This document shows, one piece after another, positions 2,885-48,235 of a stretch of DNA of 64,000 bases. How positions within the stretch are numbered: the first letter of the stretch is position 1; each line of letters begins with the position of its first letter. Origin of the DNA: Anaerolineales bacterium (GTDB lineage Bacteria; Chloroflexota; Anaerolineae; Anaerolineales; Villigracilaceae); assembly GCA_025056175.1 (NCBI GenBank), contig JANWWK010000014.1, positions 1 through 64,000 on the forward strand. The letters are read 5' to 3'. Under the pieces are notes generated by a model. The model was not told where the DNA came from. It searched no databases and saw only the letters and a list, made by a program, of their open reading frames with translations. The position numbers and the translations under genes are program-made.

Positions 2885-3942
2885 AACTCTCCTGGCTCTT
2901 TTTCCTCGCTCTGGGTTGGCTGAGCGTTTCGTCGGCTTGCACCCCGCAGACGCCGCTCCCCGTTTCCTCACCGGCTGCCGAGCCCACCGTCGCGCCTTCG
3001 CCGACCGTTCCAACCTTTCAGAACCCGGTGTTGCGCGAGAACTTTGCCGACCCGTTCATCCTGCAAGTCGGCGACACCTTTTACGCTTACGCCACCAACA
3101 ACGCCAGCAAGAACATCTCTCTGGCGCGTTCTACCGACCTGGTGAAGTGGCAAATCTTGCCAGATGCCATGCCTGCTCTGCCCCGCTGGGCCAGGCTGAC
3201 CGGCGGCCTGGTCTGGGCGCCGGAAGTCATTCAGATTGGCGAACAATTCGTCTTGTACTACACCGCCCGCGATAAGCAATCTGACAAGCAGTGTGTTGGC
3301 GTGGCGGTCAGCGACAAGCCAGAAGGCAAATTCAAAGATACCAGCGACGCGCCGCTCGTCTGTCAGGCTGAACTGGGCGGGACGATTGACGCCAGCCCAT
3401 TCCGCGATGAAGACGGCAAACTGTACCTGTATTTCAAGAACGATGGCAATTGCTGCAATCTCACCACCTACATCTACGTTCAGGAACTTGCGCCCGATGG
3501 CTTGCGCCTGCTCGGTGAGCCGATTCCGCTCGTGCGAAATGATGCTCTGTGGGAAGGGCGCGTGGTAGAAGCGCCCACCATGTTCAAGCATGAAGGCCGT
3601 TACTACCTGTTCTTTTCGGCCAACAATTATGCCGGACATGAATACGCGGTCGGCTATGCCATCTGCGAATCACCCGTTGGCCCCTGTCAGGATGCACCGG
3701 AGAATCCCATTCTGCAAAGCGATTTGACCAACCCTCCGGCAATGGTGATTGGTCCCGGTCACCAGGCGTTGTTACAGATAGGTGGTCAGACCTGGATGTT
3801 TTATCATGCGTGGGAGGTAGTGGGCGGCAGCCGACGCGGTGAACGTCGCCTGATGTGGCTCGACCGCCTGGATTGGGTGGATGGAAAACCGGTCTTGCGC
3901 GGGCCGACGACCGGGCCGCAGCCCCTACCGCAATTGCCCTGA
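2881..3942 (+). CDS. GH43-family glycoside hydrolase, lipoprotein
   Basis: Five-bladed beta-propeller glycosidase of family GH43 (beta-xylosidase/alpha-L-arabinofuranosidase group), 353 residues from ATG 2881, which overlaps the permease stop. The N-terminus is a lipoprotein signal with lipobox LSVSSAC (Cys20), then a Pro/Ser/Thr-rich tether to about residue 45, so the enzyme should be anchored on the outer face of the membrane. Catalytic features are the base Asp57 in FADPF, the pKa-modulating Asp in IDASPF, and the acid Glu in EAPTMFKHEGRYYLFF. Its place after the permeases suggests it trims oligosaccharides before import. Which sugar it releases (xylose or arabinose) is not decidable from the sequence. 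Confidence 0.9.
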   Translation: MKLSWLFFLALGWLSVSSACTPQTPLPVSSPAAEPTVAPSPTVPTFQNPVLRENFADPFILQVGDTFYAYATNNASKNISLARSTDLVKWQILPDAMPALPRWARLTGGLVWAPEVIQIGEQFVLYYTARDKQSDKQCVGVAVSDKPEGKFKDTSDAPLVCQAELGGTIDASPFRDEDGKLYLYFKNDGNCCNLTTYIYVQELAPDGLRLLGEPIPLVRNDALWEGRVVEAPTMFKHEGRYYLFFSANNYAGHEYAVGYAICESPVGPCQDAPENPILQSDLTNPPAMVIGPGHQALLQIGGQTWMFYHAWEVVGGSRRGERRLMWLDRLDWVDGKPVLRGPTTGPQPLPQLP

Positions 3943-4069
3943 CCAGATTCGCTTTTACTGCGCCATTTCTCTTCTCCTTATGCCTGCCCGCAGGCCGATG
4001 CTGCGGGCAGGCGCAATCTGCCGCCAGGCGCGGCCTGGTTTTGCGTTGCAATCATTCAAGGAGTTTCCT

Positions 4070-6799
4070 GTGTCTGCTCGTATGCGCCTCTCTCTGGATG
4101 GACAATGGTTTTTCTCTCCACTTGAACCACTGACGCCTGACTCCCCTGCTTTGCTTGCCGGGAACTGCACCCTGATTCAGGTTCCCGCCCCCTGGCAGGC
4201 CGACCCGCGTTTTCGCCATCATACCGGCGCGGCCTGGTATGCGCGTGAATTTCACCTGCCAGACGAATGGCTCGCAGCGGGGCGCGTGCTGATTTTGGGG
4301 TTTGGCGCGGTGGATTATTGCGCGCAGGTCTGGGTGAATGGCGTGGAGGTCGGCAATCATGAAGGCGGCTACCTGCCTTTCGAGTTCGACATCACCTGCG
4401 CGGCGCGGCCTGGCGCAAATACGGTCACGGTACGGGTAGATGACCCGCCTGAAATTTTCGAGGAAATTCCGCACGGCAAACAGTCCTGGTACGGAATGCT
4501 CTCCGGCTTGTGGCAATCGGTTTGGGTGGAAAGCCGCGCGGCCACCCACATTCGGCGGGTGAAAGTGACCCCAACTGGCGAACAGGTTTCGGTGGAAGTC
4601 AGTTTGAGCGGCGCATTCGCCAGAAAACTCACGGCGGAAGTTATTGCGCCGGATGGCCGAATCGCGGCGCGGGGCGAATTCGATGCGCCGCGTTTTTCCA
4701 TCCCCATCGAACACCCTTTGCACTGGTCGCCAGATGAACCACATTTGTACACGCTCAAGGTCTCGACCGGCGACGATGAAGTAACCGAAACCTTCGGTTT
4801 TCGCGTCATTGAGACCAAAAACGGGCAGATTTGGCTCAATGGGCGTCCGTTTTATCTGCGCGGCGCGCTGGACCAGGATTATTATCCCGACCTGATTTGC
4901 ACGCCGCCCTCGCAGGAATACATCGAGGCCGAGTTTCGCCAGGCCAAAGCATTGGGCTTAAACTGTCTGCGCGTACATATCAAAGTGGCGGACCCGCGCT
5001 ATTACGCTGCCGCTGACAAGGTGGGGTTGCTCATCTGGACGGAACTGCCCAACCATATTTTGCTCACCGAAGACGCCAAGCGCCGCGCCCGGCAAACCCT
5101 GGCCGGCATGGTAGAGCGAGATTGGAATCACCCTTCGATTGGGATTTGGACGATTATTAACGAATCCTGGGGCGTGGACCTGAGCAATCCCGAACACCGC
5201 GCCTGGCTGGCTGAAATGTACGACTTCATGAAGTCGCTTGACCCAATGCGGCTGGTGGCTGGTAATTCGGCCTGCTGGGGCAACTTCAACGTGGTCAGCG
5301 ACCTGGATGACTATCACATGTACTTTGCTATGCCCGACCATCACGCGCAGTGGCGCGATTGGGTGGCGGCCTTTGCCGGGCGGCCCTGGTGGACATACGC
5401 TTGTGAGTACAAAAATGCGGCTGACTGGCAGGAGATTCTGCGCGCGCCCTGGCAGGCCGCGCCGCATCCGCTTGCGCCCGAAGCGCGCCGCCGCGGCGAT
5501 GAACCGCTTCTGGTTTCCGAATTTGGCAACTGGGGACTGCCAGACGTGGAAAAACTGCTGGCGCGCTATGGCGGCGAACCCTGGTGGTTCGAGACCGGGT
5601 TGGAATGGGGCGATGGCGTGGTGTACCCGCATGAGACCGGGGGGCGTTTTCGGCAATACGCACTCGACCAGGTCTTCCCCTCGCTGGCGGCCCTTTCTGC
5701 GGCCAGCCAAAATCTGCAATTCGCGGCGATGAAGTATGAAATCGAACAAATCCGGCGTCACCCCTCCATTCAGGGCTATGTCATTACTGAGCTGACCGAT
5801 GTGCATTGGGAATGCAACGGCCTGTTGGATATGCTGCGCGGCCCAAAGACATATTTCGAGAAATTTCACACCGTTAATGCCGATGATGTGCTGATTCCGC
5901 TGTGGGAGCGGCTGGCTTTTTCGAGTGGCGAGATGTGTAACATGCCGGTTTTGTTCTCGCACTATTCAGCGCGGGATGTAAAAAAAGCTCTGCTGGAGTG
6001 GAAAGTGACCAGTGAGCCGTGCGTGGAAGGGAATCAGCCAAAGGCGGTTTTGGGAGAACCCTTCGTAGAGATGAGCGGACAAGTCGAAAGTGGAGAATGC
6101 GCACCCTTCGACGTGACCGCGTTGGGCAGGATATGTTTCACGGCACCGGTGGTGGAAAAGCCCACCCGAGCCTGCCTGCATCTGAAATTGGCGCATTGCG
6201 GCGAGATGATTGCCGCAACCGAACAGGAGTTTCTCCTGTTGCCTGCTGCATGGCAGCGACCGCCGCTCGAAAATCTGTATGCCCCCGATTTGAACGCATT
6301 TTTTGCCCGGCAGGGCATTTCGACCGTAGATGACCTTTCTCAGGCCCGCATGGCTGTCGTCTCGACTTTGGATGATGCCTGCCGTGAATTTCTCTTGCGC
6401 GGCGGGAAGGTTTTATTCCTGGCCGAACAGCCCGATTCGCTGCGGACGGTTTTGCCTGGCGTGGGCATTTCTCCGCGCGCTGGCTCGCCCTGGCAGGGCG
6501 ATTGGGCCAGCAGTTTTGGCTGGCACCGCTTCCAGAGCCTTCCAACCGGTGGCGTGGTAGATTTCTCGTTCGCCGGGCTAACGCCAGAGCAGGTCATTCA
6601 GGGCTTTGCCCCGCGTGATTTCGCGCGCAACGTCTTTGCCGGGCTGTTCGTGGGATGGATTCACAAACCTATCCCAACCATCGCCCGAAAACGTTTGGGA
6701 CGCGGCGTTCTGGTCGTTTCTACTTTTCGTTTGCGTGAAAATCTGCACGATAACCCCCTGGCGCGCTTCTTGCTGGGAGAATTGCTGCGCCTGCTCTGA
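4070..6799 (+). CDS. GH2-family glycoside hydrolase (beta-galactosidase/beta-glucuronidase-like)
   Basis: A 909-residue retaining glycosidase of family GH2 with no signal peptide, so probably cytoplasmic. The order is: N-terminal jelly-roll sugar-binding domain (to about 170), Ig-like domain, then the TIM barrel with acid/base Glu365 (WTIINESWG) and nucleophile Glu484 (LLVSEFGNWG). After the barrel is an extra region with a flavodoxin or amidotransferase-like look (AVVSTLDDACREFLLRGGKV). The start is GTG 4070, since AAGGAG lies 7 nt upstream; an in-frame open stretch to 3881 overlaps the previous gene and is rejected. Flanked by two GH43 genes, it probably acts on imported oligosaccharides; substrate unknown. 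Confidence 0.9.
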   Translation: MSARMRLSLDGQWFFSPLEPLTPDSPALLAGNCTLIQVPAPWQADPRFRHHTGAAWYAREFHLPDEWLAAGRVLILGFGAVDYCAQVWVNGVEVGNHEGGYLPFEFDITCAARPGANTVTVRVDDPPEIFEEIPHGKQSWYGMLSGLWQSVWVESRAATHIRRVKVTPTGEQVSVEVSLSGAFARKLTAEVIAPDGRIAARGEFDAPRFSIPIEHPLHWSPDEPHLYTLKVSTGDDEVTETFGFRVIETKNGQIWLNGRPFYLRGALDQDYYPDLICTPPSQEYIEAEFRQAKALGLNCLRVHIKVADPRYYAAADKVGLLIWTELPNHILLTEDAKRRARQTLAGMVERDWNHPSIGIWTIINESWGVDLSNPEHRAWLAEMYDFMKSLDPMRLVAGNSACWGNFNVVSDLDDYHMYFAMPDHHAQWRDWVAAFAGRPWWTYACEYKNAADWQEILRAPWQAAPHPLAPEARRRGDEPLLVSEFGNWGLPDVEKLLARYGGEPWWFETGLEWGDGVVYPHETGGRFRQYALDQVFPSLAALSAASQNLQFAAMKYEIEQIRRHPSIQGYVITELTDVHWECNGLLDMLRGPKTYFEKFHTVNADDVLIPLWERLAFSSGEMCNMPVLFSHYSARDVKKALLEWKVTSEPCVEGNQPKAVLGEPFVEMSGQVESGECAPFDVTALGRICFTAPVVEKPTRACLHLKLAHCGEMIAATEQEFLLLPAAWQRPPLENLYAPDLNAFFARQGISTVDDLSQARMAVVSTLDDACREFLLRGGKVLFLAEQPDSLRTVLPGVGISPRAGSPWQGDWASSFGWHRFQSLPTGGVVDFSFAGLTPEQVIQGFAPRDFARNVFAGLFVGWIHKPIPTIARKRLGRGVLVVSTFRLRENLHDNPLARFLLGELLRLL

Positions 6800-34987: not shown

Positions 34988-35548
34988 CTATTTGCGATTG
35001 CCGATGTGAGAAAGGGCCATCAGCCGCGTGATTTCCGCCTGCGCGGCGGAGAAAGCGTACACGCGCCCGCCAAAGGCAGCGGCAAACCGTTCAGCATCGC
35101 TTTGGGCATCGAACGCCAGCGCGGACGGACGACAGCAAGGCGCTACATCGCTTTCCAACACGTACCAGGCCTGTGCAGCGTTAAGCAATGCCCCGTAGAG
35201 GAAATCGGCTGTCATGGCCTGGTGCGTGTCGCTCAGGTGACTGAGGGCCAGCAGGCCGCAATGGGCACAACAGGCGGCATGGCGGCTGCCTTCACTCGCG
35301 TGAATGTGAAAGACCAGACGCGGGTTGACCGGACGCCGGCAATGCAGGCACAGGCTGGCAGCAGATTCGGGCAGGGTGATGCCACCGGGTACTTTTTGGG
35401 CAACGCCTGCCGCAATGAGCGCGTGGATTTCGCGGTAGGCCGTCGCCTGAGAGACGCCTGTCCGTGCGCGGATTTCAGCAATGCTTAAATCGCCTGTTTG
35501 GGTGAGCCAGTTCAACAGTTTTTGTTGACGGGGTGAGAGATTTTTCAT
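34988..35548 (-). CDS. HTH regulator with Cys-cluster and NosL-like domain, likely copper sensor
   Basis: A 186-residue protein with three parts: a DeoR-type winged helix (1-55, LSIAEIRARTGVSQATAYREI), a cysteine cluster resembling a zinc ribbon (Cys67-x2-Cys70 and Cys93/94-x2-Cys97, with several His), and a C-terminal segment (about 112-175) like NosL, the copper-binding lipoprotein, with paired Cys138-Cys139 and DAERFAAAFGG. It is divergent from a PCuAC-Sco copper-delivery pair and shares their promoter region. A copper-responsive repressor or activator of those genes is the natural reading; that is inference from domains and position. Confidence 0.75.
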   Translation of the reverse strand: MKNLSPRQQKLLNWLTQTGDLSIAEIRARTGVSQATAYREIHALIAAGVAQKVPGGITLPESAASLCLHCRRPVNPRLVFHIHASEGSRHAACCAHCGLLALSHLSDTHQAMTADFLYGALLNAAQAWYVLESDVAPCCRPSALAFDAQSDAERFAAAFGGRVYAFSAAQAEITRLMALSHIGNRK

Positions 35549-35645
35549 CTTTTACGCGTTCTCGCGTGGTGATACAATTTTAGAAAACCTGATAATTTTC
35601 TCAAATTTTCTCATATTTCTCTTTTCCGTCAAGGAGGCAAAAAGT
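35549..35645 (+). promoter_or_regulatory. Divergent promoter region of the copper locus with repeats
   Basis: For the regulator (minus): -35 TTGAGA (35599-35604), 16-bp spacer, -10 TAAAAT (35577-35582). For PCuAC (plus): -10 TACAAT (35573-35578), overlapping the minus -10. Candidate operators are two exact 10-bp direct repeats AATTTTCTCA (35594-35603, 35604-35613), followed by a partial third copy (35614-35621), and the inverted repeat ACGCG-TTCT-CGCGT (35554-35567). AAGGAGG precedes ATG 35646. Confidence 0.65.
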
Positions 35646-36152
35646 ATGAAAAAGTGTTTTGTGTTTTGGCTGGTTTTAATGACGATGCTGCTGGCGGCGT
35701 GCGGGGCAAATGCGCGAATGTCGCACGGCAGCGAGGGCGGCGGTCAACATACTTCGGGGATGCCGATGGATGACCAACCTGCCGTGACGGTTGGCGGGTT
35801 GGAAATTTACACGCCGAGAGCAATGTCGGGGACAAAAGGGCAGGTCACTGGCGGGTTTATGGTCATCAAAAACAATGGCGCAACCGCTGACCGCCTTTTG
35901 GGGGCTTCGTGTGGTGCAGCCATGATGACGCAGGTGCATGAAACGGTGATGGATGGCGATGTGATGAAGATGCGTGAAGTGAAGTCCATCGAAATTCCTG
36001 CCGGCGGCATGGTGGAACTGAAGCATGGCGGCTATCACATTATGCTGATGGACCTCAAGCAGGATGTAAAGGCTGGCGAAACCACCTCCTGTACGTTAAA
36101 ATTCGAAAACGCGGGCGAAGTGACGGTCGAACTTCAGGTCATGAGCCGTTGA
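35646..36152 (+). CDS. PCuAC copper chaperone lipoprotein
   Basis: Extracytoplasmic Cu(I) chaperone, 168 residues, that loads the CuA centre of cytochrome c oxidase together with Sco. Lipoprotein signal with lipobox LLAAC, a Met/His-rich N-terminal stretch (MSHGSEGGGQHTSGMPM), then the beta-barrel domain with the ligand pattern VHETVMDGDVMKM ... HGGYHIMLM (H-x-M and M residues). It is followed 16 bp later by the Sco gene. A haem-copper oxidase is implied elsewhere in the genome. Confidence 0.92.
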   Translation: MKKCFVFWLVLMTMLLAACGANARMSHGSEGGGQHTSGMPMDDQPAVTVGGLEIYTPRAMSGTKGQVTGGFMVIKNNGATADRLLGASCGAAMMTQVHETVMDGDVMKMREVKSIEIPAGGMVELKHGGYHIMLMDLKQDVKAGETTSCTLKFENAGEVTVELQVMSR

Positions 36153-36168
36153 GCCGCGTCAGGTTGGT

Positions 36169-36771
36169 ATGAAACGTCTGTTTCTGATAATTGTCAGTCT
36201 CACTCTTCTGCTGATTGTGGGCATTGGGGTCTTTCAACTTACCCGCCCGCCCGTGTTGCATGGCACGGTCATCGAACCCCCCAAGCCCATGCCAGATTTT
36301 ACACTGCAATCGACAAATGGGCCGGTTTCTTTGAGCAATTTTCGCGGCAAGGTCGTCATTCTGTATTTTGGGTACACGTCTTGCCCGGATGTTTGTCCCA
36401 CCACGCTGGCGAATCTGCGGCGTGCCTTCAACGAGTTGGGCGCCGAAGCAGAAGGGGCGCAGGTCTTGTTTGTGGCGGTGGATTGGAAAAAGGACACACC
36501 GGAACGGGTGGCTTCGTATTTGAGTGCATTTCATCCTGCTTTTGTGGGGTTGAGCGGCAACGAAGCGCAAATCAACGCGGTGACGAAGGATTTTGGCATT
36601 TTCTATCAGATTAATCCCCCCGATGAAAATGGCTATTACACCGTAGACCACACAGCGACCACGCTGGTGTTAGACCGCGAAGGCCGTCTGATGTTAACCT
36701 GGCCCTACGGTCTGACAGCAGAAGAAATGCAGGCAGATTTGCGGGCGGTTTTGCAGCAAACGAGCCGGTGA
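36169..36771 (+). CDS. SCO1/SenC-family copper-delivery protein
   Basis: Membrane-anchored thioredoxin-fold protein, 200 residues, for cytochrome oxidase CuA assembly. One N-terminal membrane helix (LFLIIVSLTLLLIVGIGVF), then the domain with Cys72-x3-Cys76 in YTSCPDVCPTT, VDWKKDTPERV, and the copper-ligand His in VDHTATTLVLD. Length and motifs are normal. Second gene of the PCuAC-Sco operon, ended by a strong terminator. Confidence 0.94.
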   Translation: MKRLFLIIVSLTLLLIVGIGVFQLTRPPVLHGTVIEPPKPMPDFTLQSTNGPVSLSNFRGKVVILYFGYTSCPDVCPTTLANLRRAFNELGAEAEGAQVLFVAVDWKKDTPERVASYLSAFHPAFVGLSGNEAQINAVTKDFGIFYQINPPDENGYYTVDHTATTLVLDREGRLMLTWPYGLTAEEMQADLRAVLQQTSR

Positions 36772-36833: not shown

Positions 36834-37307
36834 TTACGGTTCGATGGGATAGCCCAATTCCCGCCAGGTCTTCAGGCCGCCATCCATGCTGGTCACGTTG
36901 GTAAATCCGGCGCGGCGCAGGATGTCGCGACCCTCATCGGAGCGGTTGCCTGAGCGGCAGACGACTACAATGGGCGCATCTTTGGGAACAGGGATTTCTC
37001 CCACCCGTGCCGCCAATTGTCCCAGCGGGATGAGCGTGGTGTTGGGAGCGTGGTACTCGTTCCATTCTTCCTGTTCGCGCACATCGAGGAAGAACGCTTC
37101 ACCATTTTGGTAAAGGGCATAGGCTTGTTGGGGGCTGATGGTAGCACCCAGTTTGCCGTTGTTTTCGGCGTTTCCGCTCAGAATCAGGGCGACGACCACC
37201 AGTACGGCAATGCCCAGCAGACCGAGCTGGACGGCAGGCCGCCGCAGAAAGGCAAAGGGGTCACTCTGGGTCGTTTTGCGGCGGCGTACAGATGTTTTTT
37301 GGGACAT
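36834..37307 (-). CDS. Membrane-anchored rhodanese-like protein
   Basis: A 157-residue protein: basic N-terminus, one membrane helix (VQLGLLGIAVLVVVALIL, about 27-44), then an outward-facing rhodanese domain with FFLDVREQEEWNEYH, the active-site loop VVVCRSGNRSDEG (catalytic Cys) and the C-terminal GGLKTWRELGYPI. Single-domain rhodaneses of this kind handle sulfane sulfur or act as carriers; the substrate is not known. GAGG precedes ATG 37307. Confidence 0.9.
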   Translation of the reverse strand: MSQKTSVRRRKTTQSDPFAFLRRPAVQLGLLGIAVLVVVALILSGNAENNGKLGATISPQQAYALYQNGEAFFLDVREQEEWNEYHAPNTTLIPLGQLAARVGEIPVPKDAPIVVVCRSGNRSDEGRDILRRAGFTNVTSMDGGLKTWRELGYPIEP

Positions 37308-48173: not shown

Positions 48174-48235
48174 TCGAATCCGTTTTTTTCAAACATTCTC
48201 ACGATATGGTGATGAAGCACTTTTTTTGCTAGTGC

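Follow-up and report, generated by a model that had tools for sequence, protein, structure and literature searches.

A candidate YcnK-like regulator with a NosL fold beside the PCuAC and Sco genes of an Anaerolineales bacterium, and its predicted operator

The window (i.e., the whole stretch of 64,000 nucleotides analysed here, positions 1 to 64,000 of contig JANWWK010000014.1 in assembly GCA_025056175.1 of an Anaerolineales bacterium) carries a regulator gene that is divergent from a PCuAC gene across a gap of 97 bp (35549-35645), with a Sco gene starting 16 bp past PCuAC on the same strand. An earlier note, made from the sequence alone, had described a divergent regulator combining a DeoR-type HTH, CxxC and a NosL-like C-terminal part with a Cys-Cys pair, next to PCuAC and Sco; open reading frames, Pfam and alignment show each of these elements to be present. 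The features of the locus are as follows.

34988-35548, minus strand: regulator of 186 residues, DeoR-type HTH plus Cys-rich NosL-fold domain (Pfam, AlphaFold2 model, fold searches, 54-sequence alignment)
35366-35533, minus strand: HTH_DeoR domain, residues 6-61, with recognition-helix region SQATAYRE (Pfam E 1.9e-8, above the curated cut-off; group assignment)
35258-35350, minus strand: first half of the NosL fold, with C67xxC70 and C93-C94-x-H96-C97-G98 (kept in 53-54 of 54 sequences; alignment to NosL)
35042-35200, minus strand: second half of the NosL fold, residues 117-169 (Pfam NosL E 3.7e-9, above the curated cut-off; profile matches to NosL chains)
35132-35137, minus strand: Cys-Cys pair C138-C139, with C139 aligned to the conserved NosL Met (54 of 54; alignments)
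35598-35613, minus strand: predicted operator core TGAGAAAATTTGAGAA, two boxes at 10-bp spacing (pattern scans)
35617-35622, minus strand: degenerate third box AGAGAA (by eye)
35590-35595, plus strand: opposed TGATAA (by eye)
35577-35604, minus strand: promoter-like TTGAGA-N16-TAAAAT of the regulator, 10 of 12 matches, its -35 within the predicted operator (consensus match only)
35646-36152, plus strand: PCuAC, lipoprotein-like, H-x10-M-x21-H-x-M at residue 98 (Pfam E 2.2e-37; motif)
36169-36771, plus strand: Sco (SCO1/SenC), CxxxC (CPDVC) at residue 72 (Pfam SCO1-SenC E 3.1e-41; motif)

We take the H-x10-M-x21-H-x-M of PCuAC and the CPDVC of Sco to be canonical copper motifs. A membrane-anchored rhodanese (36834-37307, minus strand) adjoins Sco, and a related rhodanese is found beside Sco in another locus (L032) as well.

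Taken by itself, the HTH of the regulator matches DeoR/GlpR-type regulators, and the NosL match at residues 117-169 is confined to the C-terminal half of the profile. Neither the sugar-phosphate sensor domain of DeoR regulators nor the TRASH family was matched in Pfam, and CueR, CsoR and CopY were without a match among the families listed for the protein (24 from Pfam and 13 from NCBIfam). This agrees with the view of the earlier note that the locus departs from CueR, CsoR or CopY logic, its regulator being a single protein with an HTH, cysteines and a NosL fold that is tied to copper-delivery genes. The comparison of a predicted structure with NosL, proposed in the same note, gave a model that resembles NosL, which excludes, as far as prediction goes, a structure different from it. 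The AlphaFold2 model (19-row alignment) had a mean pLDDT of 89.2 and a pTM of 0.67; Foldseek ranked five NosL chains first, led by 7og7 (E 4.4e-6), with MerB after them, and VIA-align likewise placed 7og7 best (Z 14.9, 120 residues, rmsd 2.4), ahead of four further NosL entries (Z 12.4-13.2), winged helices (ca. 9.5) and MerB (8.8). A profile of the regulator family searched against the PDB also retrieved NosL chains (7osf, 7znq, 7og7; E 1.5e-5 to 4e-5).

The regulator has only seven cysteines (C67, C70, C93, C94, C97, C138, and C139), arranged in a CxxC motif (C67, C70), an ACCxHCG motif (C93, C94, H96, C97) and a Cys-Cys pair (C138, C139). Across 54 aligned homologs, the window protein included and the others 28-63% identical to it, six of these cysteines never vary, as is also true of H96, G98, and P141, and C93 is present in 53. 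NosL itself, the CuZ chaperone of nitrous oxide reductase, is described as binding Cu(I) by a CxM motif, with a second conserved Met present (PMC6530538). When the regulator is aligned with ten NosL proteins of the phylum (10 of 13 loci, as L141, L143, and L149 were unmatched by the motif filter and left out), both ββαβ halves can be aligned and C67xxC70 falls on CxxCxM, which all ten contain by construction since the filter demanded it, ACCxHCG falls on FDDIGC/D and the Cys-Cys pair on a conserved PM; a separate alignment of family profiles likewise sets C139 on the conserved NosL Met. In contrast to NosL, the regulator has an N-terminal HTH in place of an export signal, no cysteine before C67, an Arg at residue 72 where the Met of CxM would stand, C139 for the conserved Met, and C93, C94, H96, C97, and C138 in addition. 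Based on this alignment and on the CxM and second Met of NosL, the regulator seems to have swapped the thioethers of NosL for thiolates.

Homologs of the regulator sit beside copper genes in most of the loci recovered. The set comprised 54 loci, i.e., 50 places in genomes of the same family, one each in G209, G126, and G104, and a plasmid copy. PCuAC was found in the examined stretch of 47 of them; in 44 it is at most 250 bp from the regulator and lies downstream on the same strand (31 loci), divergent (7) or convergent (6). Of the seven loci devoid of PCuAC, four (L089, L104, L125, and L126) are interrupted by Ns or by the end of the contig, and three (L039, L041, and L046) are intact. The arrangement of the window, a regulator divergent from a PCuAC-Sco pair, which the earlier note had proposed to look for in other genomes, occurs at six of the 54 loci (the window, L103, L111, L120, L123, and L124). 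Other genes nearby encode a copper-type P-ATPase bearing HMA domains, DsbD_2-cupredoxin proteins or a small HMA protein, copA/copZ-like genes occur near several homologs of group A (defined below), and copC/copD lie near the plasmid homolog. This linkage to PCuAC recurs across genera; many loci also share genes unrelated to copper (SbcC-like, glycosyltransferase, cytochrome c552). Among the intact loci devoid of PCuAC, the homolog in the region 6956-10661 of L041 stands between an OmpR/histidine-kinase pair and hydrogenase-maturation hyp genes and may be an outlier that senses or controls something else, and the L039 homolog stands beside a PCYCGC protein, a histidine kinase and a PepSY-TM protein.

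Two neighbours of other homologs are recorded here in their own right. Directly downstream of the regulator homolog in L095 lies a PCuAC-type protein (3185-4948, minus strand) apparently made of four tandem PCuAC units, three of them nearly identical. A conserved protein of about 127 residues, with no match in Pfam, neighbours group A regulators (L036, 6434-6817, minus strand; relatives in L027, L030, and L035).

The window's genome has a single full-length copy of the regulator. Across the phylum, full-length relatives occur in 10 of 400 genomes, at 11 places (25 genomes if matches to the HTH only are counted), and within the same family 47 of 152 genomes have them, at 50 places (63 genomes on the same basis); rows with HTH-only matches and loci L027-L035, which are duplicate contigs of genomes already included, were left out of the counts. 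The named relatives are Chloroflexota MAGs, and one full-length relative is on plasmid records labelled Stenotrophomonas rhizophila. Searching plasmids by tblastn with two homologs gave mostly HTH-only matches: with the L046 query, coverage of at least 80% was reached only for the two Stenotrophomonas records, and with the L040 query nine records were covered to at least 80%, weakly apart from the same two. No relatives were found in the viral contigs searched. The plasmid homolog (L046, CP031730.1 276218-300772) is near copC/copD, ccdA, cadA, ars, and TnsA-type transposition genes, and its upstream region looks AT-rich for Stenotrophomonas. The NosL profile, run on 301 genomes of the phylum, matched 17, with 13 full-length NosL places and six fused to an HTH, though it overlooks some fused regulators (G224, G104). 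Besides the regulator it gave no NosL match in the window's genome, and a role in a nos cluster was set aside on that account.

The gap between the divergent genes holds a tandem repeat, TGAGAA-N4-TGAGAA, whose boxes are spaced by 10 bp (the predicted operator core listed above). Allowing one mismatch, this pattern matches twice in the window against 0.14 expected, a number reached by none of 100 shuffles; the second match, at 48186, has one mismatch. Grouping the 54 loci by recognition helix gave group A (S[QKP]AT-type, 16 loci, among them L124, assigned by hand since its HTH did not fit the grouping pattern) and group B (SxMT[IV]HR-type, 38 loci). With at most one mismatch, TGAKAA-N4-TGAKAA is found upstream in 12 of the 16 group A loci (1.6% of shuffles) and two of the 38 in group B, and ATAACA-N4-ATAACA in 28 of 38 (0.35% of shuffles) and none of 16, respectively, leaving four group A and ten group B upstream regions without a site; as the sites were first spotted by eye, testing these patterns on the regulator promoters was post hoc, and as the loci are related their counts are not independent events. 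Less dependent on the choice of pattern by eye are a lag test, the sites upstream of PCuAC and the matches in whole genomes. In the lag test, which needs no pattern, nine of 16 group A loci (shuffle mean 0.7) and 18 of 38 in group B (1.0) had an exact 6-mer that recurs after 10 bp, and recurrence peaked again at 20 bp (five of 16 against 0.5, and 12 of 38 against 1.2). Where PCuAC is convergent with the regulator (L036, L090, L091, and L093), an extra type-A site precedes PCuAC in each case, and G486 has another about 30 bp ahead of where a second PCuAC, divergent from copA, probably starts.

Ten whole genomes contain 30 exact type-A places, of which 16 are at regulator or PCuAC promoters, and a reversed control pattern gave 11; the 14 places elsewhere, a number similar to the control, had no PCuAC, Sco, CopA or regulator match in the stretches examined. 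One genome (G493) has the regulator and no exact type-A site genome-wide. The type-B pattern was found at eight places in six genomes, six of them the regulator promoter, against none for the control; these genomes were chosen for an exactly matching regulator promoter, so the scan informs only on rarity elsewhere (two of eight). One genome, G392, contains both a group A (L036, contig C133) and a group B (L037, contig C66) regulator, each with its own type of site. Two further candidates in the window's genome, a second exact TGAGAA-N4-TGAGAA (C70:193-208) and a relaxed match (C20:1700-1715), were rejected, as no copper gene lies at either. With one mismatch allowed, the operator pattern occurs at 12 places in that genome against six for the reversed control, and we therefore claim no wider regulon.

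Promoter elements overlap these predicted sites. A consensus scan gave five promoter-like sites in the gap region against a shuffle mean of 1.2, and TTGAYN-N15..19-TATAWT is found in 28 of the 38 group B loci, with a spacer of 17 (17 loci) or 18 (11 loci); by eye, its TATAWT hexamer falls in the TGTTATATT arm of the predicted operator. Such elements, placed inside the predicted operator, have a position that suits repression. The half-sites being one helical turn apart, several subunits could line up on one face of the DNA and form a cooperative switch.

The remaining copper genes of the window's genome are a COX2 with the CuA motif CAEICGASHAYM and one CsoR-family gene, located elsewhere with a copper-ATPase (copA) frame in the same stretch; the PCuAC of the window is the only one. 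It is plausible that CsoR runs efflux and the 34988-35548 regulator runs delivery. Two of 14 control genomes had a NosL-family match above the cut-off, one of them B. subtilis, and we take that match to be YcnK. A DeoR-type HTH at the N-terminus followed by a NosL domain at the C-terminus is presumably the architecture of YcnK also, in view of the B. subtilis match and of the assignment of YcnK to the DeoR family (PMC10991351).

In the literature, YcnK of Bacillus is a repressor of the DeoR family that responds to copper and controls a copper-uptake operon (PMC10991351, PMC8424229); it is described as binding upstream of ycnKJI through its HTH domain (PMC8424229), and B. subtilis as dividing the labour between CsoR and YcnK (PMC9484137), as is probably the case in the window's genome. 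The YcnK operon differs in encoding a CopC-CopD-YtkA importer and the DUF1775 protein YcnI, whereas the window regulator faces PCuAC and Sco on the other strand. As the content of the ycn operon was not found at our locus and the comparison with YcnK is by description only, we do not file the regulator under the YcnK family. The suggestion of the earlier note that this might be a distinct copper-sensor family thus survives in part, as regards the different neighbours and a newly predicted operator code; a wholly new family was set aside in view of the YcnK precedent. Archaeal CopR is similar in having a C-terminal Cys metal-sensing domain and in being divergent from a copper gene, but it has an Lrp-like HTH, a single TRASH domain, a semi-palindromic TTNNCAWWWTGNNAA motif and acts by activation (PMC7830388). 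CsoR is also a copper-sensing repressor, yet it is all-helical and unrelated. Among the matches listed in the open literature, we found no paper on a regulator like this one in Chloroflexota or beside PCuAC.

The protein is best described as a real copper-linked regulator, YcnK-like, with a different predicted target and a clean predicted operator code, and it very probably turns the copper-delivery genes next to it on and off. Its domain make-up, the fold prediction, the conservation of its cysteines, the linkage to PCuAC and conserved sites whose type follows the HTH type are the computed basis for a reading that we consider likely: a cytosolic copper-responsive autorepressor of PCuAC-Sco, YcnK-like in action, with the Cu(I)-loaded form repressing. 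We infer that the DeoR-type HTH would bind the tandem TGAGAA boxes in the gap, one helical turn apart, and would so control both its own gene and pcuAC-sco, whose products would supply the CuA site of cytochrome oxidase with copper. Having the Met ligands of NosL replaced and several cysteines added, the NosL-fold domain would bind Cu(I), the metal we infer, via thiolates. The most probable sign is that the copper-loaded protein represses and that copper shortage would lead to release and production of PCuAC-Sco.

The opposite sign, in which the apo-protein would repress and Cu(I) release it (CsoR- or CopY-like), making PCuAC-Sco a response to copper excess, is unlikely, though it deserves real weight. 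The copA/copZ-like genes near several group A homologs and the G486 site between a second PCuAC and copA would suit it, and accounts of YcnK diverge, with repression at high copper in some (PMC10991351, PMC12154828) versus Cu+ proposed as its antagonist in another (PMC13344008). However, efflux in the window's genome appears to be served by the CsoR beside copA, chaperones of the Sco and PCuAC kinds are said to be important when copper is low (PMC7558416), and ycnKJI is reported to rise in copper starvation and to fall when copper is replete (PMC12154828).

We find it improbable that the ligand of the NosL-fold domain is zinc, at a structural site similar to a treble clef, or some other thiophilic ion, the copper neighbours being incidental. 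The CxxC-x22-CCxHC spacing resembles a TRASH-type treble clef (by eye only), the NosL and MerB folds have been proposed to stem from duplicated TRASH-like zinc fingers (PMC4999995) and mercury-handling MerB is also a structural match, so that a structural zinc is possible and could coexist with a Cu(I) site; nevertheless, 44 of the 54 regulators have PCuAC no more than 250 bp away, the plasmid homolog is close to copC/copD, and the invariant C138-C139 lie outside the CxxC...CxHC set, all of which argues for copper. An ordinary DeoR-family metabolic repressor that lies beside copper genes by chance would share the DeoR/GlpR-type HTH, but is hardly credible next to the NosL fold, the recurrent linkage across genera and the lack of a sugar-phosphate sensing domain in Pfam.

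Returning to the Cu(I)-loaded autorepressor, its relatives may, tentatively and with somewhat less than even confidence, form a Chloroflexota-wide branch of NosL-fold sensors that are all-thiolate (not Cys/Met), dedicated to CuA delivery and reading tandem half-sites, split into TGAKAA and ATAACA specificities that coexist as separate circuits in G392. Bacterial control of copper delivery to cytochrome oxidase is poorly known compared with copper efflux, and the present analysis names a regulator, predicts the operon that it targets and gives a short, exact sequence as its predicted operator. The seven cysteines, set against the Cys/Met site of NosL, offer a hypothesis for how a periplasmic chaperone fold became a cytosolic sensor. 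Such a regulator would extend YcnK-like sensing past Bacillus-type copper importers to the chaperones of CuA.
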